In this document: in pieces, positions 10,310-45,935 of the stretch | Numbering within the stretch: position 1 is the stretch's first letter | Layout of the letters: every line of letters starts with the position of its first letter | Source: Rhizobium lentis | Lineage (GTDB): Bacteria > Pseudomonadota > Alphaproteobacteria > Rhizobiales > Rhizobiaceae | NCBI RefSeq assembly: GCF_017352135.1 | Contig: NZ_CP071456.1 | Span: forward strand, 186,001 to 250,000 | Direction of reading: 5' to 3' | DNA: 64,000 nt | Program-made: the position numbers and the translations under genes | The notes under the pieces: model-generated | The model's input: the letters and a program-made list of their open reading frames with translations, nothing else | Databases searched by the model: none | What the model was told of the DNA's origin: nothing

Positions 10310-12145
10310 TTAGCGACCGGCCATGACCAGATGGCCCGGCCCGACTTCACGATAAGCGGTGGCCGGAGGACGATAGTCGATCGGCCGCATCGGGCTTCTG
10401 ATTTCGTCGTTTGCCACCATGCGTTTTTCGTGACGTCGGTCCGGATCCGGCACCGGTACGGCGGCGATGAGTTTCTTCGTATAGGGGTGCTGCGGATTTT
10501 CGAAGACGGCGGCGCGCGGGCCGATCTCAACGATCTCGCCGAGATACATCACCGCAACGCGGTGGCTGACGCGCTCGACCACCGCCATATCATGCGAGAT
10601 GAACAGAAAGGCGAGATTGAGGCTCTGCTGCAGGTCGAGCATCAGGTTGATGACCTGCGCCTTGATCGAAACGTCGAGCGCCGAAACGCTTTCGTCGGCG
10701 ACGATGACCTTCGGCTGCAGGGCGAGCGCCCGGGCGATGCAGATGCGCTGGCGCTGGCCGCCGGAAAATTCATGCGGATAACGCCCGGCCATGTCAGCGG
10801 AAAGGCCGACCTTGACCAGCAGATCGGCAACGACGTCCCTGGCCTGTTTCGCCGTGCCCATCCTGTGCTCGAGATAGGGTTCGGCAATCGCAGCACCCAC
10901 CGTCATGCGCGGATTGAGGCTGGCGAAGGGATCCTGGAAGATCATCTGCACGGATTTGCGCATCTCGCGCAGATCCTTCTTGTCGAGCCCGAGCACCTCC
11001 CTGCCCTCGACGAGAACGGATCCTGCTTGCGGCTCGATGAGACGCATGATGGCGCGCCCCGTCGTCGATTTGCCGCAGCCGGATTCGCCGACGAGCGACA
11101 GCGTCTCGCCGGCATTGAGATCGAAAGAGACGTTTTCGACCGCATGCACGCGGCTGGTCAGCCGGCCGAAAAGGCCGGAATGGATGTCGAAGCGCTTGGT
11201 GAGGTTCCTCACCTGAAGAACAGGTGTTGCCGCGACCGTATCGGCAGCCTCGGCGGGAACGTCCGATTGCCCCGTCGCCGTGTTGACCACGGGAAAGCGC
11301 AACGGCCGCTGCCGACCCCGCATGGAGCCGAGCACCGGCACGGCCGATAGCAGCGCTCTCGTATAGGGGTGTTTGCCACGGTGAAAAATATCGGCGGTGG
11401 GCCCGCTTTCGACCTGTTCGCCGCGATACATCACGACCGTCCGATCGGCGATCTCGGCGACGACGCCCATGTCGTGGGTGATGAACAGAACGGAGGTCCC
11501 CTCCTCTTCCTGCAGCAGCTTGATGAGGTCGAGGATTTGGCCCTGGATCGTCACGTCGAGCGCCGTCGTGGGCTCGTCGGCGATCAGGAGCTTCGGCCGG
11601 CTGGCGAGCGCCATGGCGATCATCACCCGCTGGCGCATGCCGCCGGAAAAACGATGCGGATATTCGTCGAAGCGCGAGGCGGCCGAGGGGATACGGACCT
11701 TTTCCAGCAGCCTGATCGTCTCGGCCCTGGCATCGGCCTTGCTCATAGTGGAATGGCAGAGCAGCGCTTCGGAGATCTGATCGCCGATGGTGAAGAGCGG
11801 ATTGAGCGAGGTCATCGGCTCCTGGAAGATCATCGCCACCTCATTGCCGCGCACGTGCCGCATCGCATGTTCCGGCAGGGCCAGCAGGTCGCGGCCGCCG
11901 AGCATGACGCGGCCCTCGATGCGGCTCGTCTCCGCCTGCAGCAGCCGCATGATCGACAGCGAGGTGACGCTCTTGCCCGAGCCGGATTCGCCGACGATCG
12001 CCACCGTTTCGGCGGGTGCCACCGTGAACGAGACGTCGCGCACGACAGGTTTCCAGGCGCTGTCGACCAGGAAGGACGTCGTCAGTTTCTCGACGGAAAG
12101 AACGGCGGCGGTCGTTTCGATCGGTTGGGCTTGAACGCTTGCCAT
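10310..12145 (-). CDS. Fused peptide-type ABC transporter ATPase (DppD-DppF fusion)
   Basis: A 611-residue protein with two complete nucleotide-binding domains in one chain. Walker A motifs are GESGSGKS (52-59) and GESGCGKS (353-360), and the ABC signatures are FSGGMRQR (167-174) and FSGGQRQR (460-467). Each domain ends in the oligopeptide/dipeptide C-terminal extension ([12 protein letters not shown] and [12 protein letters not shown]). It energises the permease pair at 14054 and 14923 with the binding protein at 16090. Fusion of the two ATPases is common in alphaproteobacterial Dpp/Gsi-like systems. It lies 18 bases after the SelA-like gene, in one operon. Confidence 0.92.
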
Positions 12146-12163
12146 ATCGGCTCCTCTTGCGGC

Positions 12164-13360
12164 TTAATCCGGCCAGCGCAGCAATCCATCGAAGCGATGC
12201 CGGCTGCGGTTTTCGATCGGGGTGGCGATGATCTCGTTGGAGGCGCGCGCCTTGTCGAGTTCCTCAGCGAGACGGCTTGCGACGATGACCTCCTGGCCCG
12301 GATGCAGGTTGCACGGGTCGAGATAGAAATATCGGTGCTCCACCTCATGATCGCGCACGATGATCGGCGGACTGCCCTTGGCGAGCCTATCGGCCAGATC
12401 CCAGGCGGTGATATGCGTCTCTGAGGGATCGACGATGAGCCGCAGCCGATCAAGCGGATTGTTGGTCGGGTCGGGCTCGATCAGCGCGGTGACGCCCGGA
12501 CGGCCCTCGAGCGTCCTCTTCCAAAGGTTGAGATAAGTGGTTTCGCGTTCCCGGATGCCGGCATGGTCGCGGCGCTCCCAGGCTTCCAGCGCCGCCATGA
12601 CGCCGAATATGCTCTCCTTGCCGACCTTCATGCCGCGGCCAATGCCCATATTCTGCAGGAAGGCGTGGCGCACCAGTTCCTTGCTGCCGGCAACGATGCC
12701 CGAGGTCGGGCCGCCGAGAAACTTGTGGCCGGAATAGAGCGCGATATCGGCCCCCTGCTCCAGGAAGATGCGCAGATCGTATTCCGAAGCCGCATCGACG
12801 ATGACGGGCACGCCCCTGGCATGGGCGATCTCGACGAATTCCTGGAGATTCAGAAGACCGTAATCGACGACATGATGGGAAACGACGTAGACGGCAGCGG
12901 CCGTCTTGTCGGTGATCGCCTTTTCCATGTGGAAACGATGTGTAGAGGTCGCCTGTCCCACAAGCACGACCTTGCCGCCGGCAAGCCGGATCGCCTGGTC
13001 GACCGGTGCGCCGTAACTGACCACATGGCCCATCTGCACCAGCACTTCGTTCTTCTCCAGCACGGCGTCCGGCAGCTTCTCGATCGCCAGCAGATTGTCG
13101 CCGGTAATTGCACCGGCCACGGCGAGCGAAATGCCGGCCGAGCAGGAGGCGGTGACGAAACCCGCCTCGCCGCCAGTCAGCCGGGCAATGACGCTGCTTG
13201 CCTTGCGCTGCAGGTCGTTGATCTCGACGAAGTGCGGAAGGATCGCTGCCATCGCCTCGATCGCCTCCGGAACGACAATCGAGGCGCCGAGGCTAGTCAT
13301 CGTGCCGGACACGTTGATGACGGGGCGAAGGCCGAGCGAAGGTCTGATATCATCGGGCAT
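12164..13360 (-). CDS. SelA-like PLP-dependent enzyme (probable ammonia-lyase/aminotransferase-fold protein)
   Basis: A 398-residue fold-type I PLP enzyme of the group annotated as L-seryl-tRNA(Sec) selenium transferase-like. The PLP lysine is K213 in [10 protein letters not shown], and D189 (VIVDAASE) should contact the cofactor ring nitrogen. A true SelA is longer and works with selC/selB, none of which is here. Members in catabolic operons act on amino sugar acids or amino acids (for example D-glucosaminate-6-phosphate ammonia-lyase). ATG 13360 has GGAG six bases upstream. An ATG at 13408 would add 16 residues. It sits between RidA-like and ABC ATPase genes, which suggests it makes an enamine/imine that RidA clears. 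Confidence 0.82.
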
Positions 13361-13492
13361 GAAGATCTCCGGAAGTCTGGGACGAAGGGCAGAACATGGT
13401 GCGGTCATGCGGCAGTGTCGAGCAGCCGGAGGAAGGACGCCTGATAAAAAGGAAAAAAGTCATCCGCAGACCACTCCAACACGCAAACACGT

Positions 13493-13990
13493 TCAGCCAT
13501 GCAAGGCGACGATGGCCTCGATCTCGACGGTGATGTTGCCGGGCAACGAGGCGAAGCCGACGGCCGAGCGGGCATGTTCGCCGGCCGCGCCGAAGACGGC
13601 GATCAACAGATCCGAGCAGCCGTTGATGACGCTCGGATGATCCTCGAAGTCGGGCACGGCGTTGACCATGCCGAGCAGCTTGACCACCCGCCTGACGCGG
13701 GAGAGATTGCCGAGCGCCTCATGCATGACGGCAAGCAGATTGATGCCGGTCAGCCGCGCATGCCGGTAGGCCTCCTCGACACCGACGCCGCCGCCGACCT
13801 TGCCGGCATGCAGGAAGCCATCGGCCTCGCGCGGCCCCTGGCCTGAGAGATAGAGCAGGTTGCCTTCCACCACATGCGTCACGAAATTGGCAATCGGCGG
13901 CGGTGGCGGCGGCAGCGTTATGCCGAGGGCGGCTAACCGTTGGTAAGGCGAGTTCTCGACCTTGCCGGCGGCGGCGGGGAACTGATTCAC
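13493..13990 (-). CDS. RidA/YjgF-family protein (enamine/imine deaminase-like)
   Basis: A 165-residue member of the Rid superfamily, longer than classical RidA (about 130) because of an N-terminal segment with a run of prolines. The substrate-pocket arginine lies in HARSAVGFASLPGN and the acidic residue in VEIEAI near the C-terminus. RidA hydrolyses reactive enamines/imines released by PLP enzymes. The PLP enzyme gene follows directly, so the pairing makes biochemical sense. I chose GTG 13990 because AGGAG is five bases upstream. ATG 14005 has no ribosome binding site and would place AGGAG inside the gene. Confidence 0.8.
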   Translation of the reverse strand: MNQFPAAAGKVENSPYQRLAALGITLPPPPPPIANFVTHVVEGNLLYLSGQGPREADGFLHAGKVGGGVGVEEAYRHARLTGINLLAVMHEALGNLSRVRRVVKLLGMVNAVPDFEDHPSVINGCSDLLIAVFGAAGEHARSAVGFASLPGNITVEIEAIVALHG

Positions 13991-14053
13991 GCGAACTCCT
14001 GTCATGCGAATTTCGATTGGCGGATTTGGATTGGCCGACCGCTGGTCGGTGGA

Positions 14054-14923
14054 TTAAAGGTCCTTGCGAAGTCTCGGGTCGAGCATGTCTCTCAGGCCGT
14101 CGCCGACCATCTGCAGCGACAGCACCGAGAGGACGATCGCCACTCCGGGGAAAAGCGTCATCCAGTCGGCCTGGCCGATATATTGCCGGCCGGCGGCGAT
14201 CATCGTTCCCCAGGTCGGGATTTCGGGGCTGACGCCGAGGCCGAGGAAGGAGAGACCGGCTTCGGCAAGCATGGCGCTGGCGAAGAGGAAGGTCGCCTGC
14301 ACCAGGATCGGCGACAGCAGATTGCGCAGCACGTGCCGCGTCATGATGTGGAAGGTCGAGATGCCGAGCGCCCTCGCCGCCTCGACATAGGGCAGTTCGC
14401 GAATGACAAGCGTCGAGGCGCGGACGATACGGGCAAGGCGCGGCGAGTAGACGATCGACAGCGCGATGATCACGGTCGTCAAGGACGGGCCGAGGGCGGC
14501 GACGAGCGCGATCGCCAGCAGAATATCCGGGAATGCCATCATTGCATCGATCAGCCGGGCGATCGGTGTATCGAGCTTCTGGAAAAACCCGGCAAGCAGG
14601 CCGAGCGTCACGCCGATCAGCGCCGAGAGCGCGACGACCGCCGCACCGACGAGCAGCGACAGGCGGCCGGCAAAGATCGTGCGCGAAAAGACGTCGCGGC
14701 CGAACTCGTCGGTGCCGAAGAAGAAGATCTCGCTCGGCGGCTTCAGCCGGTTGACGATCGAAAGCTTGGACGGCGAATAGGGCGCGACCACGGGGGCGAA
14801 CACCGCCAACAGCACGAAGGTCGTCAGGATCAGTGCGCCGAAGGCGACCGTCCTGCGCTTCATCAGGCGGCGGACGAACTTGCCGCTCTCGCTTTCGGCG
14901 GGCTTGATTGCAATATCGGCCAT
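14054..14923 (-). CDS. Peptide-type ABC transporter permease (DppC-like)
   Basis: A 289-residue inner-membrane subunit with an N-terminal cytoplasmic stretch, one early membrane helix (ALILTTFVLLAVFAPVVAPY) and the binding-protein-dependent transport domain near residues 90-280. The EAA loop (EAARALGISTFHIMTRHVLRN) is clear and would dock on the fused ATPase. The start codon overlaps the stop of the upstream permease gene by one base, showing translational coupling. Confidence 0.92.
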   Translation of the reverse strand: MADIAIKPAESESGKFVRRLMKRRTVAFGALILTTFVLLAVFAPVVAPYSPSKLSIVNRLKPPSEIFFFGTDEFGRDVFSRTIFAGRLSLLVGAAVVALSALIGVTLGLLAGFFQKLDTPIARLIDAMMAFPDILLAIALVAALGPSLTTVIIALSIVYSPRLARIVRASTLVIRELPYVEAARALGISTFHIMTRHVLRNLLSPILVQATFLFASAMLAEAGLSFLGLGVSPEIPTWGTMIAAGRQYIGQADWMTLFPGVAIVLSVLSLQMVGDGLRDMLDPRLRKDL

Positions 14924-15864
14924 CAGTAGCGCACCCTCGGATCGACCAGCAGGTAGAGCATGTCGATCGCAAAATTGATCAGCACGTAGAGGGCGGCGAT
15001 GACGAGCAGTGCCCCCTGGATGACGGGATAGTCGCGGCGCAGCACCGCCGAGACGACGAGATTGCCGACCCCGGGCAAGCCGAAGACGGTCTCGGTGACA
15101 ACCGCACCCGAGATCAGCACGGCGGCGGTCAGGCCGAGCACGGTCAGGATCGGGATCAGCGCATTCTTCAGTGCATGCTTGAGGATGACCTTGCGCTCGA
15201 TCAGCCCCTTGGCGCGCGCGGTGCGGATATAGTCGTCGCCGAGCACATCGAGCATCGAGGCGCGGGTAAAGCGCAGGATCAGCGCCGAAGAGACGATACC
15301 GAGCGCGAAGGCCGGCAGCGTCAGGTGATACATCCGGTCCGCAAAGGTCGAGCCCGGCCCGCCATAACCCGAGACTGGGAAGAGGTTGAGCCGGACGGCG
15401 AAGAACTGCATCAGGATGAGGCCGAGCCAGAAGCTTGGAATGCTGGCGGCGAACATGGCGAGCGTCGTGGCCGCCTGGTCAATGAAGGAACCACGTCGAT
15501 AGGCGGCATAGATGCCGATCGGCAGGGCGATGATGCTGGCGATGGCAAGCGAAAACAGCGTCAGGAAGAAGGTCGGTTCGGCCCGATCGACAAGTGCTGC
15601 GGTGACCGGCATGTTGAGGAAGATCGACTGGCCGAGATCGCCCTTCAGCAACTGGCCTATATAATAGGCATATTGCAGCCCGAGCGATTGATCGAGGCCG
15701 AGCCGGGCCCGGAGATCGGCAATATCCTGCGGCGTCGCATCTGGCCCGAGCATGACGGCGGCCGGATCGCCCGGCGTCACGCGCACGATGACGAAGACGA
15801 TCGTGACGACCAGAAACATCACGACGATCATGCCGAACAGGCGCTGGAGGATGTAGCGTATCAT
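14923..15864 (-). CDS. Peptide-type ABC transporter permease (DppB-like)
   Basis: A 313-residue inner-membrane subunit with about six membrane helices. The N-terminal segment MIRYILQRLFGMIVVMFLVV is typical of DppB/OppB proteins, and the EAA motif region (TARAKGLIERKVILKHALKNALIP) is present. It partners the DppC-like permease, with which it overlaps by one base. Between it and the binding-protein gene lies a 225-base gap filled by a palindromic repeat element, which may uncouple the amounts of binding protein and membrane subunits. Confidence 0.92.
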   Translation of the reverse strand: MIRYILQRLFGMIVVMFLVVTIVFVIVRVTPGDPAAVMLGPDATPQDIADLRARLGLDQSLGLQYAYYIGQLLKGDLGQSIFLNMPVTAALVDRAEPTFFLTLFSLAIASIIALPIGIYAAYRRGSFIDQAATTLAMFAASIPSFWLGLILMQFFAVRLNLFPVSGYGGPGSTFADRMYHLTLPAFALGIVSSALILRFTRASMLDVLGDDYIRTARAKGLIERKVILKHALKNALIPILTVLGLTAAVLISGAVVTETVFGLPGVGNLVVSAVLRRDYPVIQGALLVIAALYVLINFAIDMLYLLVDPRVRY

Positions 15865-16089: not shown

Positions 16090-17616
16090 TCACTTCTTGA
16101 TCGAGGCATTCCAGAAATACGGCCAGGGAGCCGGATCGACGCCTTCGAGCTTGACCGATTTCGCCGAGACGGCGTTGAAATCGCCGATCTTCATGAAGGG
16201 CGCGTCTGCATAAACGGCCTTCTGGACATCGGCCCAGAGCGCCACGCGCTTCTTCGGATCGACTTCGGACGTGAAGGCGTCGACGGCGGCCTTGCGGGCC
16301 GGCGTATCCCACCAGCCGGGCGAACTCGTCGACAGCGAGCCGATGAGCGCCGGCTCCGGCAGGAAGGGGCTGTGGGTGATGTAGATGTCCCAGAGCTTCG
16401 GATCGGTGCGGCGCTGCGTCAGCGTCGCCCAATCCACGACCTGCATGTCGACGGTGAAGCCGGCAAGCTTCAGATATTCGGCGGCGACCTGCGCCATCTT
16501 GTAGTGGAACTCGTACTGACGGCTGGTCAGGATGCGGATCGGCTCGCCGTTGTAGCCGGCCTTCTTGGCGGCAGCCGCCGCCCCTTCCGGATCGGCGACA
16601 TTATAGGCACCCTCGACGCCGGCATCCGTCGACCAGGCAAAGGACTTCGGATAGATGGCGCCGTCGAGCGCATAAAAATCCTTGCTGCCGAAAGCCGCCG
16701 CCAGCATGTCTTCCATGCTGAGCGCCTGGCGGATCGCCTTGCGCACCTCGACGTTTGCAGCAGCACCTTCCTTGGTGTTGAAGACGAAAACCGGATAGCC
16801 GAAGGGCTTCAGCATGACCGGCTGCGAGGCGGTCGATGCCTTCAGTTTGTCGTAGGATTCGACCGGGATCGAGTCGACATAATCATACTGGCCGGAAATG
16901 GCGGCCTCGACGCGGGTGTTCGGGTCCGGCACCGGCACGAAGCGGATTTCATCGAGATATTGATGACGGGCGCCGCCATAACCATCGCTGTCGCCGCTGC
17001 GCGAGACATACCCGTCGAAGCGGACGAGCTGGATATACTGGTCGGCCTTGCGCTCCTTCAGCATATAGGGGCCGGTGCCGATGAATTCCTTCATCGGCTC
17101 GTCCTGCTTTTCGGACGGGATGATGATCGCCGCCGAATTGTTGAAGGCGAGCAGCGAGGTCAGCGGCGCATAGGGCTGCTTCAGGGTGATGGTAACCGTC
17201 GACGGATCGGTCGCCGCGATCTTGTCGATGAAGCCCGCCACCTGCTTGCCGCGCGAGGCGATCTTCATCCATCGGCCAAGCGAGGCGACGACATCCTCCG
17301 ACGTCATCTCTGTATTGTCGTGGAACTTGATGCCGGTCCTGAGCTTGATCGTATAGGTTTTGCCGTCGGCGCTGATCTCAGGCAGGCTCTCGGCCAGCAG
17401 CGGCGTGACATTCCAGCTCTTGTCGAAAGTATAGAGCGTTTCGAAAATATGCTGCGTGACGATGCCGACGAGATCGGCCGTCGACGACATCGGATCGAGC
17501 GTCGGCGGCTCGCCGATCGTCGCGACATTGATGACACCGCCCTTTTCCTGGGCAAGCAGCGTCGAAGGCAGGGCGACAAGGGCAGTGCCGAGAAGGAATG
17601 CGACCAATGTTTTCAT
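16090..17616 (-). CDS. Periplasmic substrate-binding protein, family 5 (Opp/Dpp type)
   Basis: A 508-residue secreted binding protein. The signal peptide is MKTLVAFLLGTALVALPSTLLAQ with cleavage near AQ-EK. The mature part has the SBP_bac_5 features, for example LAESLPEISADGKTYTIKLRTGIKFHD and the later VDSIPVESYDKLK. ATG 17616 has GGGAG upstream, while ATG 17643 would place nine residues ahead of the signal peptide. It is the first gene of the operon and its promoter (17668-17695) strongly resembles that of the amidohydrolase gene at 44569. Ligand class cannot be read: family 5 proteins bind peptides, but also opines, oligosaccharides and amino-acid derivatives. Confidence 0.92.
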   Translation of the reverse strand: MKTLVAFLLGTALVALPSTLLAQEKGGVINVATIGEPPTLDPMSSTADLVGIVTQHIFETLYTFDKSWNVTPLLAESLPEISADGKTYTIKLRTGIKFHDNTEMTSEDVVASLGRWMKIASRGKQVAGFIDKIAATDPSTVTITLKQPYAPLTSLLAFNNSAAIIIPSEKQDEPMKEFIGTGPYMLKERKADQYIQLVRFDGYVSRSGDSDGYGGARHQYLDEIRFVPVPDPNTRVEAAISGQYDYVDSIPVESYDKLKASTASQPVMLKPFGYPVFVFNTKEGAAANVEVRKAIRQALSMEDMLAAAFGSKDFYALDGAIYPKSFAWSTDAGVEGAYNVADPEGAAAAAKKAGYNGEPIRILTSRQYEFHYKMAQVAAEYLKLAGFTVDMQVVDWATLTQRRTDPKLWDIYITHSPFLPEPALIGSLSTSSPGWWDTPARKAAVDAFTSEVDPKKRVALWADVQKAVYADAPFMKIGDFNAVSAKSVKLEGVDPAPWPYFWNASIKK

Positions 17617-17637
17617 GATAAGGCTCCCAGCTGAGTT

Positions 17638-17648
17638 CCACAATTATG
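17638..17648 (-). promoter_or_regulatory. Candidate IclR operator 1 (CCACAATTATG)
   Basis: The same core, CCATAATTATG, occurs at the same distance (19 nt) from the -10 box of the amidohydrolase promoter, and CCATAATAATG occurs at the start of the IclR gene. Its position just downstream of the -10 fits a repressor site. Confidence 0.55.
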
Positions 17649-17667
17649 CAATTCATCTTTTTGTAAC

Positions 17668-17695
17668 AGAATAGGAGATGGAATTATCGTGTCAA
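17668..17695 (-). promoter_or_regulatory. Sigma70-type promoter of the SBP/SelA-like operon
   Basis: On the minus strand: TTGACA (17695-17690), a 16-nt spacer, then TATTCT (17673-17668). The sequence downstream (CTGTTACAAA, then CATAATTGTGG) is closely matched at the amidohydrolase promoter. The -35 box is a consensus match; the -10 box is moderate. Confidence 0.65.
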
Positions 17696-20993: not shown

Positions 20994-21141
20994 CCAATAC
21001 CCCAAGTCGAAGCTGCACGAGAACGGCAGGCGCCGCGCCGCATCTGAAAATCCCTGTTGACAAGCCCTCTGAGATGGCGAAGTCTATGACATTAAAAGGG
21101 GATATATTCCGCAATAAGGGAACATTTGGAGATAGACAGGG

Positions 21142-21621
21142 ATGCCAGACCTGCTTGTGAGCTTATATTCAAACAGGCTCGCGGAACTGAAAGAGCGGGC
21201 CGACGTCGTCGGCGCCTCCATCCGTCCGGCTCTCCCTCCGGAACTGCATCTCGTCGTCGCCTGGATTCGCGAACGGTTCAGCGAAAACTGGGCGAGTGAA
21301 GTTTCTGTCGCCTTCTCCCGCCAGCCCGTTGCCTGCCTGATCGCTGTCGAAGGCGGCGAACTGCTCGGTTTTGCCTGCTACGACACAACGGCCCGCGGCT
21401 TCTTCGGTCCGACCGGCGTCGATCCGGAAGCACGCGGCAGGGGCCTCGGCCTCGCCCTCTTTTCCGCCTGCCTCCAGACCATGAAGGCGCTCGGCCATGC
21501 CTATGCCTTCATCGGCGATGCCGGCCCCGTCGATTTCTACGCGAGCACCGCAGGCGCGATCGCCATCCCTGCCCCCGACAAGGGCATTTACCAAGGCATG
21601 CTGAGAAGCGCGCCGAAATGA
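21142..21621 (+). CDS. GNAT-family N-acetyltransferase
   Basis: A 159-residue acetyl-CoA-dependent acetyltransferase. The acetyl-CoA pyrophosphate loop is in motif A, GPTGVDPEARGRGLGLALFSA (about residues 93-113), preceded by the beta-bulge strand LLGFACYDTTARGFF. It is the first gene of a likely operon with a NagZ-like hydrolase (24 bases downstream) and an oligopeptide-type transporter, so an amino sugar or peptide could be its substrate, but this is only context. The ribosome binding site is imperfect. Confidence 0.82.
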   Translation: MPDLLVSLYSNRLAELKERADVVGASIRPALPPELHLVVAWIRERFSENWASEVSVAFSRQPVACLIAVEGGELLGFACYDTTARGFFGPTGVDPEARGRGLGLALFSACLQTMKALGHAYAFIGDAGPVDFYASTAGAIAIPAPDKGIYQGMLRSAPK

Positions 21622-21645
21622 CCCTCTGATACCGGAGTTACAGAA

Positions 21646-22668
21646 TTGTCCTCGACCCCGCTCGCCCTATTCGTCGGCCTCCCAAACCCTGTCATTTCGG
21701 ATGACGAATTCGCGCTCTTTCGCGACACCAACCCGCTCGGCCTCTTCGTCGGCCGGCGTAACCAGCGTGAGCCGGAGCAGACGAAGCGGCTGATCGACCG
21801 CTTCCGCGAAGCCGTCGGCCGAGAGGATGCGCCTGTTTTCACCGACCAGGAGGGCGGCCGCGTTCAGCATCTCGATGCCGGCCCCTGGCCGCTCTTCCGC
21901 AGCTTCGGCCAATTCGCCGAGCTTGCCCGCCGCGATTTCGATCTCGGGAAAAAAGCACTGCGCCTTTCCTCCCAGGCCATGGGCGCGATGATGACGGAAC
22001 TCGGCCTTTCCAGCGGCTGCTCGCCCGTTCTCGATCTCGTCTTCGAGACGACGAGCGCGGTCATCGGCGCCCGCTCCTTCGGCCCCGATCCCGATGTCAT
22101 CGCTGCCCTCGGCCGGGAGGTGGTCGACGGCCTGCTCGAGACCGGCAACATGCCCGTCATGAAGCATATTCCCGGCCATGGCCGCGCCACGCTCGATTCC
22201 CACAAGGAACGACCGGTCGTCGATGCCAGCCGTGAGACGCTCGCCGCCACCGATTTCAAGCCTTTCCTAGCACTGAAGGATACGCCCTGGGCGATGGTCG
22301 CCCACGTTGTTTACTCCGCCTACGACGCCGAGCTGCCGGCCTCCGTCTCGCCTGTCATGCACGAGGTGATCCGCAAGGAGATGGGTTACGAGGGCGTGCT
22401 GATCTCCGACTGCATCTTCATGGAGTCGCTTGCCGGCACGCTGCCGGAGCGGGTCGCCCAAGTGCTCGACGCGGGCTTCGACATCGCCCTCCACAGCCAC
22501 GGCGACGTCAGCGAAAGCGAAGCCGCCGCCAAGGCCGCCCGCCCGCTGACGGACGCCGCGCTGAAGCGTATCGCCGCCGGCAAGGCCCGGCTCGGCAATC
22601 TCAAGATCGACGTCCGCGCCGCCCATGCCGAGGTCGAAGACATGTTTGCCAGCGTGCCGGTCGCCTGA
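21646..22668 (+). CDS. Glycoside hydrolase family 3 protein (NagZ-like beta-N-acetylhexosaminidase)
   Basis: A 340-residue single-domain GH3 protein without a signal peptide. The NagZ hallmark KHIPGHGRA is present (about residues 168-176), together with the substrate-binding FTDQEGGRVQHL and the nucleophile region LISDCIFMESL, where D is the expected catalytic aspartate. The start is TTG 21646 with GGAG eight bases upstream. Followed at 43 bases by a binding-protein gene, so the unit may import and cleave beta-N-acetylhexosamine-containing glycans, such as chitobiose or muropeptides, in the cytoplasm. The housekeeping NagZ may be elsewhere. Confidence 0.85.
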   Translation: MSSTPLALFVGLPNPVISDDEFALFRDTNPLGLFVGRRNQREPEQTKRLIDRFREAVGREDAPVFTDQEGGRVQHLDAGPWPLFRSFGQFAELARRDFDLGKKALRLSSQAMGAMMTELGLSSGCSPVLDLVFETTSAVIGARSFGPDPDVIAALGREVVDGLLETGNMPVMKHIPGHGRATLDSHKERPVVDASRETLAATDFKPFLALKDTPWAMVAHVVYSAYDAELPASVSPVMHEVIRKEMGYEGVLISDCIFMESLAGTLPERVAQVLDAGFDIALHSHGDVSESEAAAKAARPLTDAALKRIAAGKARLGNLKIDVRAAHAEVEDMFASVPVA

Positions 22669-22710
22669 CCGGCAGATCATTTTCACGCATAAGAAAAAGG
22701 GGAATGGAAC

Positions 22711-24357: not shown

Positions 24358-24370
24358 GCATCATGATCTC

Positions 24371-24450
24371 GGGAGTGGCGTCGAAGCATGATGCCGAAAA
24401 CTGTTAGCGGTTTTCGGAAGACATCATGCTCATCCAGAAACGCCACTCCC
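24371..24450. repeat. Nested palindromic intergenic element
   Basis: Three inverted repeats are stacked in one 80-base element: GGGAGTGGCG (24371-24380) with CGCCACTCCC (24441-24450), AGCATGATG with CATCATGCT (24385-24393 with 24422-24430) and CCGAAAA with TTTTCGG (24394-24400 with 24411-24417). It folds into one long interrupted hairpin between the binding-protein and permease genes and resembles dispersed repeats known from rhizobial genomes. Confidence 0.75.
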
Positions 24451-37745: not shown

Positions 37746-40700
37746 ATGAGCAGACAGTGGGATTTCTGGATCGATCGCGGCGGTACCTTCACTGATATCG
37801 TCGCCCGGCGGCCCGACGGTTCGCTCATCGCCCACAAGCTTCTCTCGGAAAATCCCGAAGCCTATCGCGACCCGGCCGTGTACGGCATTCGCGAACTCCT
37901 CGGCCTGAAGCCTGACGAGGCGATCCCTTCCGAGCTCATCGGCGCCGTGAAGATGGGGACGACGGTCGCCACCAACGCCCTTCTGGAACGCAAGGGTGAT
38001 CCGACCCTGCTCGTAACGACCAAGGGTTTCCGGGACGCGCTGGAGATCGGCTACCAGGCCCGGGCTGATATTTTCGCCAAGAAGATCGTCAAACCGGAGC
38101 TGCTCTATGCCGACGTGATCGAGGCCGACGAGCGCGTGCTGGCCGACGGAACGGTGGAACGGCCGCTCTCCGAAGGCGATCTGCGGCACGCGCTGCAGGC
38201 CGCCTATGCCAGCGGCCTGCGCGCCGTCGCCATCGTTTTCATGCATGCCTACCGCTATCCCCTGCACGAGCAGCAAGCCGCCGTCATCGCGCGCGACATC
38301 GGTTTCACGCAGGTCTCGCCGTCGCATGTCGTCTCCCCGCTGATCAAGCTCGTCGGCCGCGGCGACACTGCCGTCGTCGACGCCTATCTGTCCCCGGTTC
38401 TCCGGCGCTATGTCGATCAGGTCGCTGCCGAGCTCGGCGCCGTGGACGGGAAGGGCCCTAAGCTGATGTTCATGCAGTCATCGGGCGGGCTGACCGACGC
38501 GCATCTCTTCCAGGGGAAGGACGCGATCCTCTCCGGGCCTGCCGGCGGGGTGGTCGGCGCGGTCGAGGTCTCGCGCATCGCCGGGTTCGACAGGATGATC
38601 GGCTTCGACATGGGCGGCACCTCGACCGACGTTTCGCATTATGACGGAGAGCTGGAACGCGCTTTCGAGACCGAAGTCGCCGGCGTGCGCATGCGCGCGC
38701 CGATGATGAAGATCCATACCGTCGCCGCCGGCGGCGGCTCTATTCTGAGCTATGACGGTTCGCGCTTCCGCGTCGGCCCGGAATCGGCCGGCGCCACGCC
38801 CGGCCCGAAATCCTATCGTCGCGGCGGGCCGCTCGCCGTCACCGACGCCAATATCATGACGGGCAAGCTGTTGCCGGAATTCTTCCCTGAAATCTTCGGG
38901 CCGGAGCAGGATCAGCCGCTCGATGCCGAGGCAGTGCGCGCCGCCTTTGCCGAGATGGCGCAGACGATTGGCGGCGGGCGAACCGCGGAAGACGTCGCCG
39001 ACGGCTTTCTCGCCATCGCCGTCGAGAACATGGCCAATGCCATCAAGAAGATCTCCGTCCAGCGCGGCTACGACGTTTCCAATTACGCGCTCACCTGCTT
39101 CGGCGGCGCCGGCGGCCAGCATGCCTGCCTCGTCGCCGACAGCCTCGGCATGAAGACGGTGCTGATCCACCCCTTCTCCGGCATCCTCTCAGCCTATGGC
39201 ATGGGTCTCGCCGATATCCGCGCCACCCGCCAGCGGGCGGTGCTGACGGAACTCTCCGCCGCCTTGACGAGCATCGGCGACGTCAGGGCCGGACTGGAGG
39301 CAGAGGTGCGCGCAGAATTGATGCTGCAGGGCGTCGAAGCGGATGACATGGAGGTCGTCACCCGACTTCACCTGCAATATAAGGGCACCGACACGGCCCT
39401 GCCCGTCGCCTTCGGACCTGAGGAGGAGATTGCGCAAGCTTTTGCCATCGCTCATAAGAAGCAGTTCGGTTTCATTTTCGATGACCGGCCTGTTGTCGTC
39501 GACTCAATTGAAGTCGAGGGCATCGGCGGCGGCGCCGATATCGAAGAGACGGATGTACCGGCGCCAACCTTCGCGCCGGAAGCGCTTCGCACGACCCGCT
39601 TCTATTCCGGCGGAACGTGGCACGAGGCCGGTATTTTCAGACGCGATGCGCTGAAGCCGGGCGCGATCGTCAAAGGCCCTGCCCTGATCATCGAAGCGCA
39701 TCAGACGATCGTCGTCGAGGCCGGCTGGCAGGCGCGGCTTACCGGCCATGACCATATCGTTCTCACCCGCGAGATCGCGCTTTCCCGCAATGCCGCAATC
39801 GGCACCAGTGCCGATCCCGTCATGCTCGAAGTCTTCAACAACCTCTTCATGGCGATCGCCGAGCAGATGGGCGTGACGCTCCAGAACACCGCCCATTCGG
39901 TCAATATCAAGGAGCGGCTCGATTTCTCCTGCGCTGTCTTCGACCGCACCGGCGCGCTCGTCGCCAATGCGCCGCATATGCCGGTGCATCTCGGCTCCAT
40001 GGACCGCTCGGTCGAAACGATCATCCGCCTCAACGAGGGCCGCATTCGTCCAGGCGACGTCTTCGCGCTCAACGCGCCCTATAATGGCGGCACGCATCTG
40101 CCCGACATTACCGTCGTCACGCCCGTTTTCGACGATGCGGGAGAAACCATCCTCTTTTACGTTGCCTCACGCGGTCATCATGCCGATATCGGCGGCAAGG
40201 CGCCGGGTTCGATGACGCCGCGGGCGACGAAGGTCGATGAAGAAGGCGTGCTGATCGATAATTTCCTGCTGGTCGACAAGGGGCGTTTCCGGGAAGCCGA
40301 ATTCGCGGCCATGCTGACAAACCATGCTTATCCCGCCCGCAATCCGGCCCAGAACCTTGCCGACGTGAAGGCGCAGATCGCGGCCAACGAAAAGGGCGTT
40401 TGGGAACTGCGCAAGATGGTCGCCCATTTCGGGCTCGACGTTGTCGAAGCCTATATGGGCCATGTCCAGGACAATGCCGAGGAGAGCGTTCGCCGGGTGA
40501 TCGCCCGCTTGAGCGATAGCGAGTTCACCTACTCCACCGACCAGGGCGCCGTCATCAGGGTGAAGATCACCGTCGACAGACGGGCGCGCGAGGCGACCGT
40601 CGATTTCACCGGCACGAGCGCGCAGCAGCCGACCAATTTCAACGCACCGGAACCGGTGACGCGCGCCGCCGTGCTCTACGTCTTCCGTGTCATGGTCGAA

Positions 40701-41357
40701 CAGCCGATCCCGATGAACGCCGGTTGCCTGCGGCCGATCCGGATCATCGTGCCGGATGGTTCGATGCTGCGTCCGGCCTATCCCGCCGCCGTCGTCGCCG
40801 GCAATGTCGAGACCAGCCAGCATGTAACGAATGCGCTGTTCGGGGCGCTCGGGACGCTTGCGGCGGCCCAGGGCTCGATGAACAACCTGACCTTCGGCAA
40901 CGCCATCTATCAATATTACGAGACGATCTGCTCCGGCGGCCCCGCCGGTCTGCTCAATGACGGCACCGGCTTCAGCGGCGCCGACGGCGTGCATACGCAT
41001 ATGACCAATTCACGGCTGACCGATCCCGAAGTGCTGGAATTCCGCTTTCCCGTCGTACTGGAAGATTTCCATATCCGCCGCGGCTCCGGTGGCAAGGGGC
41101 AATACAGCGCCGGCGGCGGCACCAAACGCACCATCCGTTTTCGGGAAATGATGGATTGCAGCATCCTCTCTTCGCATCGAACGATCCGGCCGTTCGGCCT
41201 CTTCGGCGGGGAAGACGGACAATTGGGGAAAACCGAAGTGCGTCGCGCAGATGGCAGGCTCGAAAGGCTGGAGGGCTGCGACCAGGCAATGCTCGCCGCC
41301 GGCGACGCCGTGATCATCACGACGCCAACCGGCGGTGGCTACGGCAAGCCGCACTGA
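37746..41357 (+). CDS. Fused hydantoinase A/B, 5-oxoprolinase-type ATP-dependent amidohydrolase
   Basis: A 1203-residue cytoplasmic enzyme with HyuA (about residues 1-680) and HyuB (about 690-1200) in one chain, as in 5-oxoprolinases. The ATP-fold start [18 protein letters not shown] and the second phosphate loop [13 protein letters not shown] belong to the actin-like HyuA part. HyuB begins near [28 protein letters not shown] and ends [10 protein letters not shown]. Likely reactions are ATP-driven ring opening of 5-oxoproline or a hydantoin. The fused form favours 5-oxoprolinase. It stands alone under the divergent MarR-like regulator. Confidence 0.88.
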
Positions 41358-41445
41358 AACGCGTCGCATCAGACCTCGATCGACGCGCTTCCGCTCCTTG
41401 TCTTCATGCCTTTATCCCGAAACCGCCAATTCCGGGCGACATGCA

Positions 41446-42303
41446 TCAAAGGATCGGCTTGCCGCCGGTGACCGCGATTGTCGTGCCGGAGACATAACTC
41501 GACAAGGGATCGGCCAGCATCACATAAGCCGTGGCAAGCTCGGCCGGCTGGCCCGGCCGTTTCATCGGCACCTGCTTGCCGAAATTGCTGACACTGTCTT
41601 CCGGCAGCGTCGACGGAATAAGCGGCGTCCAGATCGGTCCCGGCGCCACGGCGTTGGCGCGAATGCCCTTCTCGGCCAGAAGCTGGGCCAGACCGGCGGT
41701 GAAATTCTGGATCGCGCCCTTCGTCGTCGCATAGGCGAGCAGCGTCGGGTTTGGATTGTCGGCGTTGATCGAGGCCGTATTGATGATGGCGCTGCCGGGC
41801 TTCATATGGGCAACGGCAGCCTTGGTCAGGTAGAACATCGCGTGAATATTGACCTTGAAGGTGAGCTCCCACTCCTCGTCGCTGATCTCGTCGATGCTCT
41901 TGAAGCTGGCCTGGTGCGCGGCATTATTGACAAGAATGTCGATGCCGCCGAGCTCCTTGACCGCGGTTTCGACGATCTGCCGGCAATGGGCCGGATCCTG
42001 AATGTCGCCACTGATGAGCACAGCCTTGCGGCCGGCCTGCTCGACGAGCCGCTTTGTCTCGTCGGCATCCTCGTCTTCGTCGAGGTAGGAGATCACCAGA
42101 TCGGCACCCTCCCTGGCATAGGCGATCGCTACCGCCCGGCCGATGCCGCTATCGCCGCCGGTGATGATCGCCCGTTTGCCCTTGAGGCGTTCGGATCCGC
42201 GATAGGTTTTTTCGCCATGATCGGGAACCGGATCCATCTGCGCGGTAAAACCCGGCATCGGCTGTTTCTGGGATGGGAACGGGGGTGTTGGGTAATTGGT
42301 CAT
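41446..42303 (-). CDS. Short-chain dehydrogenase/reductase (YhdG/glucose dehydrogenase-like)
   Basis: A 285-residue NAD(P)-dependent oxidoreductase with an N-terminal extension of about 40 residues (QKQPMPGFTAQMDPVPDHGEKTYRG) typical of general-stress SDRs. The cofactor loop is ITGGDSGIGRAVA, the NNA motif is LVNNAAHQ, and the catalytic residues are S (NTASINAD) and YATTK. The first of two adjacent ATGs (42306) is only two bases after AGGAGG; the second (42303) is better spaced. Likely a stress-related dehydrogenase of unknown substrate. Confidence 0.85.
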   Translation of the reverse strand: MTNYPTPPFPSQKQPMPGFTAQMDPVPDHGEKTYRGSERLKGKRAIITGGDSGIGRAVAIAYAREGADLVISYLDEDEDADETKRLVEQAGRKAVLISGDIQDPAHCRQIVETAVKELGGIDILVNNAAHQASFKSIDEISDEEWELTFKVNIHAMFYLTKAAVAHMKPGSAIINTASINADNPNPTLLAYATTKGAIQNFTAGLAQLLAEKGIRANAVAPGPIWTPLIPSTLPEDSVSNFGKQVPMKRPGQPAELATAYVMLADPLSSYVSGTTIAVTGGKPIL

Positions 42304-42391
42304 CATATCCTCCTGGGTTGAGGGGCAAACTCAAGCTGCGGCTTGTTGTTCCAGCGGCATTGCGACCAGGTGGCTTTCCACGCAAAAATGA

Positions 42392-42850: not shown

Positions 42851-42888
42851 CCTACAAGATGTTGCGATTTGCCACAGCGCCCGCTGTC

Positions 42889-42907
42889 CCATAATAATGT
42901 AATATGG
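42889..42907. promoter_or_regulatory. Candidate IclR operator 3 (autoregulatory)
   Basis: A 19-bp imperfect palindrome, CCATAATAATGTAATATGG (7 of 9 arm positions symmetric), overlaps the first possible ATG of the IclR gene and lies 21 bases before the preferred start. It shares the CCAYAATWATG core with the sites at 17638 and 45878. Confidence 0.5.
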
Positions 42908-42927: not shown

Positions 42928-43767
42928 ATGGAATTGGACGGAAAGACATTATCCGCAGTTTACTCCGAAGATGAGAGCCTTGCCGGCGACGCCGGTAGCA
43001 AGGGCGCGCGCCGCGCGCGCGTCAGCGGCATCGACCGTGCGCTTCAGGTGATCGATCATCTTTATGAGACAGGATCGCCCGCCGGCGTCTATGCGATCGC
43101 CAAGGCAGTGAAGGCGCCGCTGTCGACCGTTTACGTCATCGTCGACGATCTCGTCGAAAAGAACCTGCTGACGCGCCAGGCGGACGGATCGATCTGGCTC
43201 GGCGCCCGGCTCTACCATTATGGCCTTGCCTATGCCCGGTCGCTGGATTTCATGAGCATCGCCACCCACGAAATGCACGATCTCTGCCGCCAGGCCGGCG
43301 AAACCGTGCAGGTCTGCGGCCGCGACGGCGACTATATGCTGGTGCTTGCCATGGCCGACGGTCCGAGCCACTTCCAGGTGGCGTCGCGCGTCGGCACCCG
43401 CGTGCCGCTCAACTGGACCGCGTCCGGCCGCCTGCTCGTCGGCCACCTGCCCGAAGAGGAGCGCATCGAACTTTTCAGGCGCTGCGCCCGCTCGTCTCCT
43501 ACCGGCCGCGCCGAGATCGATCCACGCACTCTTTCGGAAGCCGCCGGCAAAGCCTTCGAATCGCGTCTGTCGATCCAGGCCGGCGAATCCGATTATGCGG
43601 TTGCCTGCATCGCCTCCCCGATCTGCGATCGCGACGGCCAGTGCGTCGCCACCATTTCCATCGTGCTGCCGGAGCAGAAGGCCTTCTCCGACGAGAACCA
43701 TTATACCGCCCATGTGCGCAGCTCGGCGGAGCGGATCGAAAAGCTGATGGGTTGGCGCAACCGCTGA
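42928..43767 (+). CDS. IclR-family regulator
   Basis: A 279-residue regulator. The winged helix is at about residues 25-90 (GIDRALQVIDHLYETGSPAGVYAIAKAVKAPLSTVYVIVDDLVEKNLL) followed by the IclR effector domain (SIATHEMHDLCRQAGETVQVC to VATISIVLP). ATG 42928 has GAGG five bases upstream; ATG 42904 would add eight residues. The nearest metabolic gene is the amidohydrolase at 44569, whose promoter carries an operator-like sequence resembling one at this gene and another at the transporter operon 25 kb away. I infer that it controls all three. Confidence 0.87.
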   Translation: MELDGKTLSAVYSEDESLAGDAGSKGARRARVSGIDRALQVIDHLYETGSPAGVYAIAKAVKAPLSTVYVIVDDLVEKNLLTRQADGSIWLGARLYHYGLAYARSLDFMSIATHEMHDLCRQAGETVQVCGRDGDYMLVLAMADGPSHFQVASRVGTRVPLNWTASGRLLVGHLPEEERIELFRRCARSSPTGRAEIDPRTLSEAAGKAFESRLSIQAGESDYAVACIASPICDRDGQCVATISIVLPEQKAFSDENHYTAHVRSSAERIEKLMGWRNR

Positions 43768-43852: not shown

Positions 43853-44107
43853 ATGGCCGTTCTGACAGTTCGAAACGTGCCCGATGAAGTGCATCGCGCA
43901 TTGCGTGTCCGGGCGGCGATGCATGGCCGCAGCACCGAGGCGGAAGTTCGCGAAATCCTGGAAAGTGCCGTAAAGCCCGAGCAGCGCATTCGCATGGGGG
44001 ACGCTTTGGCTGAACTCGGTCGGCAATTGGGGCTGACCAATGATGATCTCGAGGTGCTCGATCAGCTGCGCGAAAGGGCGCCGGCGGAGCCCTTGAGGTT
44101 TGAATGA
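43853..44107 (+). CDS. FitA/Arc-like ribbon-helix-helix antitoxin
   Basis: An 84-residue antitoxin. The N-terminal MAVLTVRNVPDEVHRALRVRAAMHGRSTEAEVREILESA is the ribbon-helix-helix DNA-binding domain of the FitA type. The C-terminal part should wrap around the PIN toxin. Its stop overlaps the toxin start by four bases (ATGA). A TGACGTCA palindrome (43819-43826) upstream is a possible operator. Confidence 0.85.
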   Translation: MAVLTVRNVPDEVHRALRVRAAMHGRSTEAEVREILESAVKPEQRIRMGDALAELGRQLGLTNDDLEVLDQLRERAPAEPLRFE

Positions 44108-44544
44108 TCGTACTCGATACGAATGTGCTTTCCGAGACGATGAAACCGACGCCCAGTTCGGCTGTGCGCGCGTGGCTCAATGAGCAAGCCGCGGAAACCC
44201 TCTATTTGTCGAGTGTGACCTTGGCCGAATTGATGTTCGGCATCGGCGCGGACGGTCGACGCAAAGCGGCGCTGACGGAGATGCTTGGCGGCTTACTAGC
44301 ACTCTTTGGGGATCGGGTATTGCCATTCGACGCCGGAGCGGCCCGGCATTATGCCGACCTTGCCGTCAGAGCTAGAATGAACGGCAAAGGCTTCCCGACG
44401 CCGGACGGATATATCGCCGCCATCGCCGCTTCCAAGGGCTTTACTGTCGCGACACGCGATATGGGCCCGTTCGAGGCGGCAGGACTGACTGTCGTAAATC
44501 CCTGGAACCATCGATCATCCGAGGCCTCTCGGGAGAATTTATGA
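44104..44544 (+). CDS. FitB/VapC-type PIN-domain toxin
   Basis: A 146-residue PIN ribonuclease. The acidic site is complete: D5 (IVLDTNVLSE), E42 (TLAELMFG), D101 (TPDGYIAAIA) and D119 (ATRDMGPF). It should be held inactive by the overlapping antitoxin. With a second, ruined TA pair 1.3 kb upstream, this stretch looks like an accessory insertion between the IclR gene and its presumed target. Confidence 0.87.
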   Translation: MIVLDTNVLSETMKPTPSSAVRAWLNEQAAETLYLSSVTLAELMFGIGADGRRKAALTEMLGGLLALFGDRVLPFDAGAARHYADLAVRARMNGKGFPTPDGYIAAIAASKGFTVATRDMGPFEAAGLTVVNPWNHRSSEASRENL

Positions 44545-44568: not shown

Positions 44569-45777
44569 CTACCTGTAGGAATAGCCGTGGCTGTGGCGCA
44601 CCAGCTTGCGCGCCCGCGGCACGTAGCGGCTGGCGGCGACGGCCTCGGCACCCATCACCGCATAGCGCGGCTCGAACAGCTTTTTGAGGACCGAGACATC
44701 GCCGTTCGAATCCGTCGCCTCGAGCTCGGACTCAACGAGGTCGAAAACGGTGAATTCGGCTTGCGCGCCGACCGCAAGCCGGTCCTCCATCGACAGCTTG
44801 ATGACCGATGCCGGCGCATGGGTGACGGCCTCCACCACCTTGTCGAAGGGCATGCCGACGCTCAACAGCTTCGACATCGTCGTCGCCAGATCCCAGACGG
44901 GGAAGTTCATCGAATGGCCATGCAGGTCGGTCGAGATCGAAAACGGCAGCAGCCCGCGAGCGATTGCCGCTTCGGCGACCTTGAAGGAGAAGGAGGCGCC
45001 GCCATGGCCGATATCGAGGCGGATGCCTTCCCTGGCGCACCGCTCGGCCAGATAGAAGAGATCTTCGTCCTCCATGATGCTCGAACCGGCCTTGCCGTTG
45101 AAGCAGTGCGTGACGACATCGCCGGGGCCGAGGATTTCGAGCACTTCGTCATAGAGCGCCGGCGGCTCGCCGACATGCACCATCATCGGCACTTTCAGAA
45201 TCTTGGCGATCTTCTTGCCGAGCTTAACGGGGGTGACGCCCCAGGAACCGGTAATGACGTGGCTGGCGCGCACCTTGATGCCGACGATGTGCTCGCTGTT
45301 TTCGGCATAGACTTCGAGGATGCGGTCGAGATCGATATCTCTAATATCCCTGAGTTCCGCGACGCGGTTGCAGGCGACGAGACCGATCGAGCCGAGATTC
45401 AGGAAGGCCTTGATGCGCTCGCGCGAGGGCTCGATGATATATTCGCGGAAGCCATGGAAATTCGCCTCGCCGGCCGAACCAGCATCGACCAGGGTGGTGA
45501 CGCCGCGCTCGAGACCGCATTCGGAAGGCCGGATGGAAATATCGGTGCCGCCGTGCCAGATGTGCACATGCAGATCGATCCAGCCGGGCGAGACGAAGGC
45601 GCCCTTGCCGTCGATGCGCGTCACCTCATCGGAAACCGCCAGCGACGGCCCGATCCCGGCAATCCTGCCCTCGGAATTGACGAGAATGTCGATCACCCCG
45701 TCGCCCGCCCCGGAACCGAAAGCCATCGGCTTAACGTTAGTGAGCAGAAGCGGCTTCTTCGCCTGGTCGCCGTACAT
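44569..45777 (-). CDS. Amidohydrolase/deacetylase-type metallohydrolase (COG3964-like)
   Basis: A 402-residue amidohydrolase-superfamily TIM barrel. The binuclear metal site is visible: H70 and H72 (DLHVHIW), K168 as the probable carboxylated lysine (VGIKVRASH), H201 (VHVGEPP), H224 (VVTHCFNG) and D284 (STDLHGHS). The group is often found with SelA-like PLP enzymes in catabolic operons, and one such enzyme is encoded at 12164 under a matching promoter. Probable role: removing an acyl or carbamoyl group from an amino acid-type substrate. AAAGGAAAG precedes ATG 45777. An in-frame start at 45873 would extend into the promoter/operator region. Confidence 0.85.
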   Translation of the reverse strand: MYGDQAKKPLLLTNVKPMAFGSGAGDGVIDILVNSEGRIAGIGPSLAVSDEVTRIDGKGAFVSPGWIDLHVHIWHGGTDISIRPSECGLERGVTTLVDAGSAGEANFHGFREYIIEPSRERIKAFLNLGSIGLVACNRVAELRDIRDIDLDRILEVYAENSEHIVGIKVRASHVITGSWGVTPVKLGKKIAKILKVPMMVHVGEPPALYDEVLEILGPGDVVTHCFNGKAGSSIMEDEDLFYLAERCAREGIRLDIGHGGASFSFKVAEAAIARGLLPFSISTDLHGHSMNFPVWDLATTMSKLLSVGMPFDKVVEAVTHAPASVIKLSMEDRLAVGAQAEFTVFDLVESELEATDSNGDVSVLKKLFEPRYAVMGAEAVAASRYVPRARKLVRHSHGYSYR

Positions 45778-45877
45778 AAAATGCTTTCCTTTCGAAGTCT
45801 CGAGCCGGGATCGCTCTCGGTCATCGTCTGCGGTCATTATGGAAGGCTGGGAACCAGAAACGGCGATTACCATTAAT

Positions 45878-45888
45878 CCATAATTATG
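45878..45888 (-). promoter_or_regulatory. Candidate IclR operator 2 (CCATAATTATG)
   Basis: Contains the perfect palindrome CATAATTATG (45879-45888). It lies 19 nt downstream of the -10 box, exactly the spacing found at the SBP operon promoter (operator 17638-17648). Confidence 0.55.
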
Positions 45889-45907
45889 ATATATAAATCT
45901 TTATAAT

Positions 45908-45935
45908 AGAATAAAGTGGCAGGTAGCGCTGTCAA
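45908..45935 (-). promoter_or_regulatory. Sigma70-type promoter of the amidohydrolase gene
   Basis: On the minus strand: TTGACA (45935-45930), 16 nt, TATTCT (45913-45908). Hexamers, spacer length and distance to the operator are the same as at 17668-17695. Between the -10 and operator the two regions also share CTRTTAYAAA. Confidence 0.65.

Follow-up and report, generated by a model that had tools for sequence, protein, structure and literature searches.

We describe here a 64,000-nucleotide stretch of Rhizobium lentis (contig NZ_CP071456.1, positions 186,001 to 250,000, hereafter the window), which probably carries a regulon of one IclR-family regulator whose operator-sharing units descend from a single split operon. 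One unit is an operon for a solute-binding protein (SBP), two permeases, a Rid protein, a pyridoxal phosphate (PLP) enzyme and an ATP-binding cassette (ABC) ATPase. The other, 28 kb away, is an amidohydrolase gene, which neighbours both the IclR gene and a gene for an extracytoplasmic function (ECF) sigma factor. Such a regulon would be new but of a known kind, and its history unusual. The features on which the argument is built are as follows.

10310-12145, minus strand: double ABC ATPase, GsiA-like (profile searches)
12164-13408, minus strand: SelA-like PLP enzyme related to D-glucosaminate-6-phosphate ammonia lyase (profile and structure matches)
13493-14005, minus strand: Rid (YjgF) family protein (PF14588 and PF01042 above cut-off; PDB 3d01)
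14054-14923, minus strand: permease C, permC (profile search)
14923-15864, minus strand: permease B, permB (profile search)
16090-17616, minus strand: SBP, family 5 (PF00496)
17635-17652, minus strand: predicted SBP-operon operator, ATTGCATAATTGTGGAAC (16 of 18 positions of the IclR group-1 consensus)
17657-17671, minus strand: candidate upstream tandem box of the SBP promoter, TTCTGTTACAAAAAG (offset scoring against the consensus)
17668-17695, minus strand: SBP-operon promoter, TTGACA-N16-TATTCT (sequence reading and relatives' promoters)
42886-42903, plus strand: predicted IclR-gene operator, GTCCCATAATAATGTAAT (15 of 18)
42934-43767, plus strand: IclR-family regulator with probable TTG start (Pfam domains and conserved start region)
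44569-45777, minus strand: COG3964-type amidohydrolase, 402 aa from the revised start (NF006689, PDB 2ogj)
45787-45801, minus strand: putative permC-end scar in the amidohydrolase leader, GAGACTTCGAAAGGA, with an AAAGGA ribosome-binding motif (junction identity)
45875-45892, minus strand: predicted amidohydrolase operator, ATATCATAATTATGGATT (14 of 18)
45897-45911, minus strand: candidate upstream tandem box of the amidohydrolase promoter, TTCTATTATAAAGAT, overlapping the end of the -10 box (offset 20 bp; right half weak)
45908-45935, minus strand: amidohydrolase promoter, TTGACA-N16-TATTCT (sequence and synteny), a probable relic of the ancestral SBP promoter
46033-46998, minus strand: ECF-type sigma factor with SnoaL-like domain (Sigma70_r2 and Sigma70_r4_2 above cut-off), a landmark upstream of the amidohydrolase promoter

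The original prediction, made by eye from the letters of the window, had seen one promoter and operator design at both units, and reading both promoters bore this out: TTGACA-N16-TATTCT is present at the two places on the minus strand, and the -10 box is followed by CTGTTACAAA at the SBP promoter and by CTATTATAAA at the amidohydrolase promoter, each with the CTRTTAYAAA stretch and with the core (CATAATTGTGG / CATAATTATGG, which is CCAYAATTATG on the other strand) beginning exactly 19 nt past the -10. The alignment of the two promoters over 52 nt downstream of TTGACA is gapless as claimed, but the identity amounts to merely 27 of 52 positions, and it is unevenly spread, with 1 of 16 in the spacer between -35 and -10 and 26 of 36 from the -10 onward, so that the likeness begins at the -10 box. 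A third palindrome had been noticed near the IclR gene, and CCATAATAATGTAATATGG is indeed found at 42889-42907. Its supposed overlap with the IclR coding start is probably wrong, because the conserved start region in relatives points to the TTG at 42934, while the site ends at 42903. Moreover, the amidohydrolase probably starts at the ATG at 45777 rather than at 45873, since most of the relatives' alignments begin nearby and AAAGGA precedes this ATG.

The same layout is kept in relatives. In the scan of named relatives the best 80 of 296 loci were analysed, and all counts out of 80 given below rest on those; the promoter rows comprised 63 for SBP and 38 for the amidohydrolase (54 and 27 distinct sequences, with some genomes in both sets). 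The 19-nt distance from the -10 to the core occurs in all 38 amidohydrolase rows and in 56 of the 63 SBP rows (54 measured by script and two, L137 and L215, read by eye). The remaining seven SBP rows have a differently spelled site (of the CCGTAATAA type in six, otherwise in L143), with the -10 taken as TATCAT. At the IclR gene itself, the site was found with no or one mismatch in 80 of 80 named loci, compared with 1 of 1600 mononucleotide shuffles, and it is kept even in the 11 loci where the IclR gene stands without other genes of the cluster. Thus, the motif is conserved upstream of the orthologues and travels together with the IclR gene, and the original prediction stands up to the first of two refutation checks applied to it.

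Motif searches were performed by degenerate pattern matching, with reversed patterns as controls. In the 6.42-Mb host genome, exact CCAYAATTATG has two matches, which are the SBP and amidohydrolase promoter sites, and 49 matches appear when one mismatch is permitted (13 for the reversed control). With the pattern TNNCATAATTATGKAAY, which was composed from the three window sites and their relatives, and up to two mismatches, the three window sites rank top genome-wide with one mismatch each among 16 matches (two of them the same sites on the opposite strand; control 3). A composite of -10 box and operator, TATTCTNTTRYAA-N9..13-CATARYTRTG with five lengths permitted, gave 27 matches in 61 genomes, namely 17 SBP and 10 amidohydrolase promoters, all of 35 nt; no match lay outside these promoters in the 61 genomes and the control gave 0. 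The less demanding 14-mer CATARYWRTGKAAY gave 69 matches in the same genomes, at 23 IclR, 17 SBP and 10 amidohydrolase promoters and at 19 other places, versus about 33 for the reversed control (summed by hand). The motif is therefore not spread over many unrelated genes, and the prediction stands up to the second check as well. The convergence of two sigma-70 promoters that have no operator in common would fit the 27 of 52 identities and the unmatched spacer, but hardly the 19-nt distance kept in nearly all rows of both sets or the confinement of the composite to these loci, and we regard it as very improbable.

For a family-wide view, 247 genomes were drawn, 37 of which had the IclR at E<=1e-80, and 30 were examined as loci with 1.5 kb on each side. 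Where the IclR identity was 70-85%, the PLP enzyme, Rid and amidohydrolase genes adjoin the IclR gene in 19 of 19 loci, and the best mismatches to the IclR site were 0 in five loci, 1 in three, 2 in seven, 3 in three and 4 in one. In the eight loci with IclR of 60-64% identity there was no amidohydrolase within 1.5 kb on either side, and the best sites had 3-6 mismatches, mostly at shuffle level. Hence, the operator follows this subgroup of regulators. Several observations weigh against a strict link between regulator and site. The standard IclR-gene site was not seen in G004 or in the 60-64% orthologues, and the composite has no exact match in seven of the 24 genus genomes bearing the IclR (G003, G004, G013, G016, G018, G025 and G036); in G003 the contig stops before SBP, and the other six have altered sites or -10 boxes. 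There are also the 19 off-site matches of the 14-mer, one at the GNAT operon of G003 discussed below, and six of them lie in genus genomes without an IclR of the window type. These off-site matches, together with five further matches to the window IclR in the host genome (best 30% identity), leave some room for a different regulator that binds the shared palindrome while the IclR is merely a passenger of the cluster. Such a regulator is improbable, given that the promoter of the IclR gene itself bears the site, also in the 11 loci that lack the rest, that the 13 genus genomes without window-type IclR do not have the composite, and that the sites agree with the IclR-family consensus.

Group-1 IclR sites are given as GKTYCRYW3-4RYGRAMC, and tandem sites are placed 18-22 nt apart (94 orthologous groups of the IclR family), by Suvorova and Gelfand (2021, PMC8222616). 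Tandem sites bound by a tetramer are frequent among IclR-family regulators, though not universal. The group-1 regulators and the window system have in common the type of palindrome, transporter-subunit targets and possibly the tandem arrangement at about 20 bp, whereas the targets in the window are divided between loci far apart and have a weak upstream box. The scores listed above against this consensus are weak evidence when taken alone, because 82 stretches of the window score 14, 16 score 15 and 4 score 16 when both strands are counted. When the main site was fixed and second-site offsets of 12-26 were compared in 100 of the 101 promoter rows, the best mean score was obtained 20 bp upstream (11.2 of 18 for SBP and 11.7 for the amidohydrolase). 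This lead is narrow and the upstream box weak, which speaks against a firm tandem site: the next best mean is 10.9 at offset 23 in both sets. The left half of the second site at offset 20 scores 8.7 and 8.9 of 11, the next best being 7.7 and 7.5. Since the upstream box overlaps the end of the -10, a protein lying over the -10 and the start region would block transcription, and it is from this operator position that we infer repression. The IclR encoded from 42934 would then be the local regulator of one uptake-and-breakdown pathway, binding tandem palindromes at the SBP and amidohydrolase promoters, over the -10 and start point and about 20 bp beyond, and a single palindrome at its own promoter. 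Most likely, it would repress until the pathway substrate binds to it.

That genes 28 kb apart belong to one pathway, as the original prediction proposed, gains independent support from the gene order in relatives. A joined cluster including the IclR gene (arrangement A) is present in 42 of the 80 named loci, the IclR and amidohydrolase genes only (arrangement C, the split type of the window) in 27, and the IclR gene without other cluster genes in the stretch (arrangement B) in 11; in three genomes of the last type (G014, G027 and G033) the remaining operon including the amidohydrolase gene is located elsewhere in the genome. Among the 61 genomes searched, orthologues of the amidohydrolase (at least 74% identity), PLP enzyme (at least 75%) and IclR (at least 73%) are common to the same 24 of 37 genus genomes, while the other 13 have distant relatives alone, of which a PLP enzyme of 62% in G010 comes nearest; the amidohydrolases of G002 and G035, for instance, are at 35-38%. 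In a set of 148 genus genomes, the amidohydrolase occurs in 109 (E<=1e-100), as a single copy in each.

How the cluster came to be split can be read to some extent from its neighbourhood. In the unsplit loci L190, L192, L193 and L195 the SBP promoter follows an ECF gene, with a rhamnose isomerase gene in view in three of them. In 26 of 27 split loci this ECF gene instead precedes the amidohydrolase match, with 159-245 bp between the end of the gene and the match, and it is present in 11 of 11 IclR-only loci. In unsplit relatives the amidohydrolase starts a few bases past the end of permC, e.g. GATCCAAGACTTCGAAAGGACC, and the amidohydrolase leader of the window contains the word AGACTTCGAAAGGA within 45787-45801, the putative scar listed above, which has 14 nt identical to this junction. 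Exact identities of 12-19 nt with the permC/amidohydrolase junction occur in 14 of the 27 split leaders, the maximum in 540 shuffles being 10. Furthermore, in 11 split genomes the amidohydrolase promoter agrees with the SBP promoter of its own genome at 24-29 of 41 positions, and with the best match among the resident SBP promoters of unsplit relatives at 30-37 of 41, the latter being higher in 11 of 11 genomes. Considering the ECF synteny, the permC-end words and these promoter identities, the simplest reading of the sequences is that SBP, permB and permC were deleted in place and that the old SBP promoter now drives the amidohydrolase gene. Some facts tell against this reading. In the other 13 split leaders any word in common with the permC end is shorter than 12 nt, and part of the word is the ribosome-binding site, so that selection could have kept it; in the promoter comparison the resident side had four promoters to take the best from and the genome itself a single one, a bias towards the resident side; and in G034 a promoter of the B type is closer still to the amidohydrolase promoter. 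The identical -35 and -10 boxes and operator layout would also be expected if the amidohydrolase gene had moved first and its promoter were a later copy of the SBP promoter in that genome. To such copying we give little probability, as the promoter identities, even with the comparison of best of four against one, together with the ECF synteny and the permC-end words, favour deletion in place. In the split leaders (L155-L185 and L230), the distance from the operator to the probable start varies from about 10 to more than 100 nt, and several of these leaders are without the permC-end word.

If deletion in place is accepted, the ancestral operon would have been SBP-permB-permC-amidohydrolase-Rid plus PLP-ATPase, with the IclR gene inside on the opposite strand. 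In the clade of the window, the resident cluster beside the rhamnose genes would have lost all but IclR and amidohydrolase, the deletion of SBP-permB-permC joining the old SBP promoter to the amidohydrolase gene, and a second copy of the cluster, probably from another lineage, would supply the transporter, Rid and PLP enzyme without IclR and amidohydrolase. The design common to the two distant units would thus go back to the promoter of a single ancestral operon, a probable cause that the original prediction had not named.

For the origin of the second copy the gene trees are in conflict. In a tree of SBP, PLP enzyme and ATPase (38 rows, 1531 columns), the window clade groups with R. rhizogenes (91/82, not starred) rather than with the sister group that it has in the IclR tree, and joining it with the latter was rejected by the approximately unbiased (AU) test (p 0.014). 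In the IclR tree the window clade and the sister group are joined (94/92), and the R. rhizogenes grouping was rejected (AU p 0.016). This suggests that the transporter/PLP operon is a second cluster acquired by transfer, followed by reciprocal loss, which we favour over duplication. Against this stand two points: support for joining the window clade and the sister group is weak in the amidohydrolase tree (76/97), in which the R. rhizogenes grouping was not rejected (p 0.18), and the donor group was chosen after the first FastTree trees had been inspected, so that the conflict of the trees is suggestive. A duplication inside the genome, for which the unstarred support of the operon grouping and the undecided amidohydrolase tree leave space, is opposed by both AU rejections, and we consider it the less likely of the two.

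With respect to the gene products, the IclR-family domains are above cut-off (HTH_IclR PF09339, 27.3 bits with cut-off 22; IclR_C PF01614, 89 bits with cut-off 24), and the amidohydrolase is above the equivalog cut-off of NF006689 (457.2 bits versus 371). It matches PDB 2ogj, its closest solved relative, deposited as a dihydroorotase, nearly over its full length with 770 bits. We take 2ogj to be Atu3266 of Agrobacterium, which hydrolyses (R)-alpha-acetyl esters; unlike that protein, the amidohydrolase here would be under common regulation with a PLP enzyme, a Rid protein and an ABC importer. Among solved structures the PLP enzyme is closest to D-glucosaminate-6-phosphate ammonia lyase, being homologous to DgaE (PDB 7lc0) over residues 20-385 with 258 bits. 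It falls below the cut-offs of the DgaE equivalog NF047797 (301.8 versus 600) and the subfamily TIGR01437 (323.5 versus 385.3), and its substrate therefore probably differs from that of DgaE. The Rid protein scores 72.1 for PF14588 (cut-off 35) and 47.7 for PF01042 (cut-off 27.3), and is below the cut-off of the NCBIfam subfamily TIGR00004 (33.4 versus 106.25); Rid proteins elsewhere remove the enamine or imine produced by such lyases. The double ATPase is below the cut-off of the glutathione importer GsiA (832.3 versus 1077). Taken together, the importer, amidohydrolase, PLP enzyme and Rid protein suggest an N-acylated D-amino acid or amino sugar acid as the substrate.

In addition, an operon that the original prediction had missed may belong to the regulon. 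At 21055-28021 there is another family-5 ABC operon, which includes genes for GNAT and GH3 proteins; its features are as follows.

21106-21123, plus strand: candidate fourth operator, ATTCCGCAATAAGGGAAC (16 of 18 positions of the group-1 consensus; conserved in relatives)
21142-28021, plus strand: candidate fourth unit, with GNAT, GH3 beta-N-acetylhexosaminidase-like enzyme, SBP5, two permeases and two ATPases

Upstream of this operon there is TTGACA together with the palindrome, and no clear -10. When the DNA of the GNAT promoter was searched for, 15 of the 61 genomes matched, all 15 among the 24 IclR genomes; their best sites score 15-17 of 18, and nine of them read exactly ATTCCGYAATAACGGAAT. 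GH3 orthologues with at least 83% identity are present in 17 of the 37 genus genomes, all 17 within the 24 with IclR (Fisher p 2e-5, a value that ignores the relatedness of the genomes), and paralogues of 38-41% occur widely. For the palindrome TTCCRYAATARYGGAA there are 15 matches among the 61 genomes, 11 at the GNAT operon, one at the SBP promoter of G013 and three at other places (places compared by hand), the three others having another spelling, TTCCGCAATAGCGGAA, in G010, G031 and G050. The GNAT operon of G003 carries ATTCCATAATTATGGAT, which includes the core of the amidohydrolase site of the window. As the same two spellings of the site are found at the main targets and at the GNAT operon, the operon at 21142-28021 is a probable further target of the IclR regulon. 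With the GH3 N-acetylhexosaminidase-like enzyme included, N-acetylated amino sugar acids become an attractive substrate class. The extended proposal, in which one regulator governs a pathway of two ancestries, controls the GNAT-GH3-ABC operon as well and serves the breakdown of an N-acetylated amino sugar acid or a similar compound, is put forward tentatively, at somewhat less than an even chance. If it is true, the regulon unites two importers, an N-acetylhexosaminidase-like enzyme, a deacylase-type amidohydrolase, an ammonia-lyase-like enzyme and a Rid protein, and the operator on both copies of the cluster let the regulon survive the split.

The break-up of operons with partial replacement by transfer is a general phenomenon, and the erythritol loci of Rhizobiales are reportedly a case of a rearranged catabolic cluster; here, by comparison, the deletion would be recorded in a promoter relic and a gene-end word, and both halves retain the operator. 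In the titles and abstract openings of the literature searched on its enzymes, on IclR in Rhizobium and on operon splitting, the regulon is unnamed. Three elements look new: an amidohydrolase promoter that would be the former SBP promoter, still at its original position next to the ECF sigma gene; the conflict between the trees of the transporter/PLP operon and of IclR; and the probable fourth target. A motif spotted by eye has led to a testable regulon linking the amidohydrolase to a transporter, a PLP enzyme and a Rid protein, and to a readable case of probable operon break-up with co-regulation kept, in which about half of the split relatives would show a trace of the deleted gene.

The amidohydrolase has as neighbours, at 46033-48825, the ECF sigma gene and genes of rhamnose catabolism, and rhaI is also in the stretch of 7 of the 42 unsplit clusters. 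On the other side, at 37746-42306, genes for a 5-oxoprolinase/hydantoinase and for a short-chain dehydrogenase/reductase (SDR) adjoin the IclR gene, in 14 and 24 of the 27 split loci, respectively; in unsplit relatives PLP-ATPase is found at their place. A gene for a PIN-domain (toxin-like) protein at 44104-44544 lies between the IclR and amidohydrolase genes and occurs also in a few split relatives (L155, L173 and L175), other split relatives having merely about 30 bp between the two genes and no PIN-domain gene. Finally, paralogous pairs of PLP and Rid genes (58-67% identity) are located at a distance of a few kb from another IclR gene, of 31-36% identity, which suggests a sister system, at the following places.

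L146, 6535-8222 (G036): PLP and Rid paralogue pair
L147, 5962-7648 (G013): PLP and Rid paralogue pair
L144, 9425-11096 (G010): PLP and Rid paralogue pair

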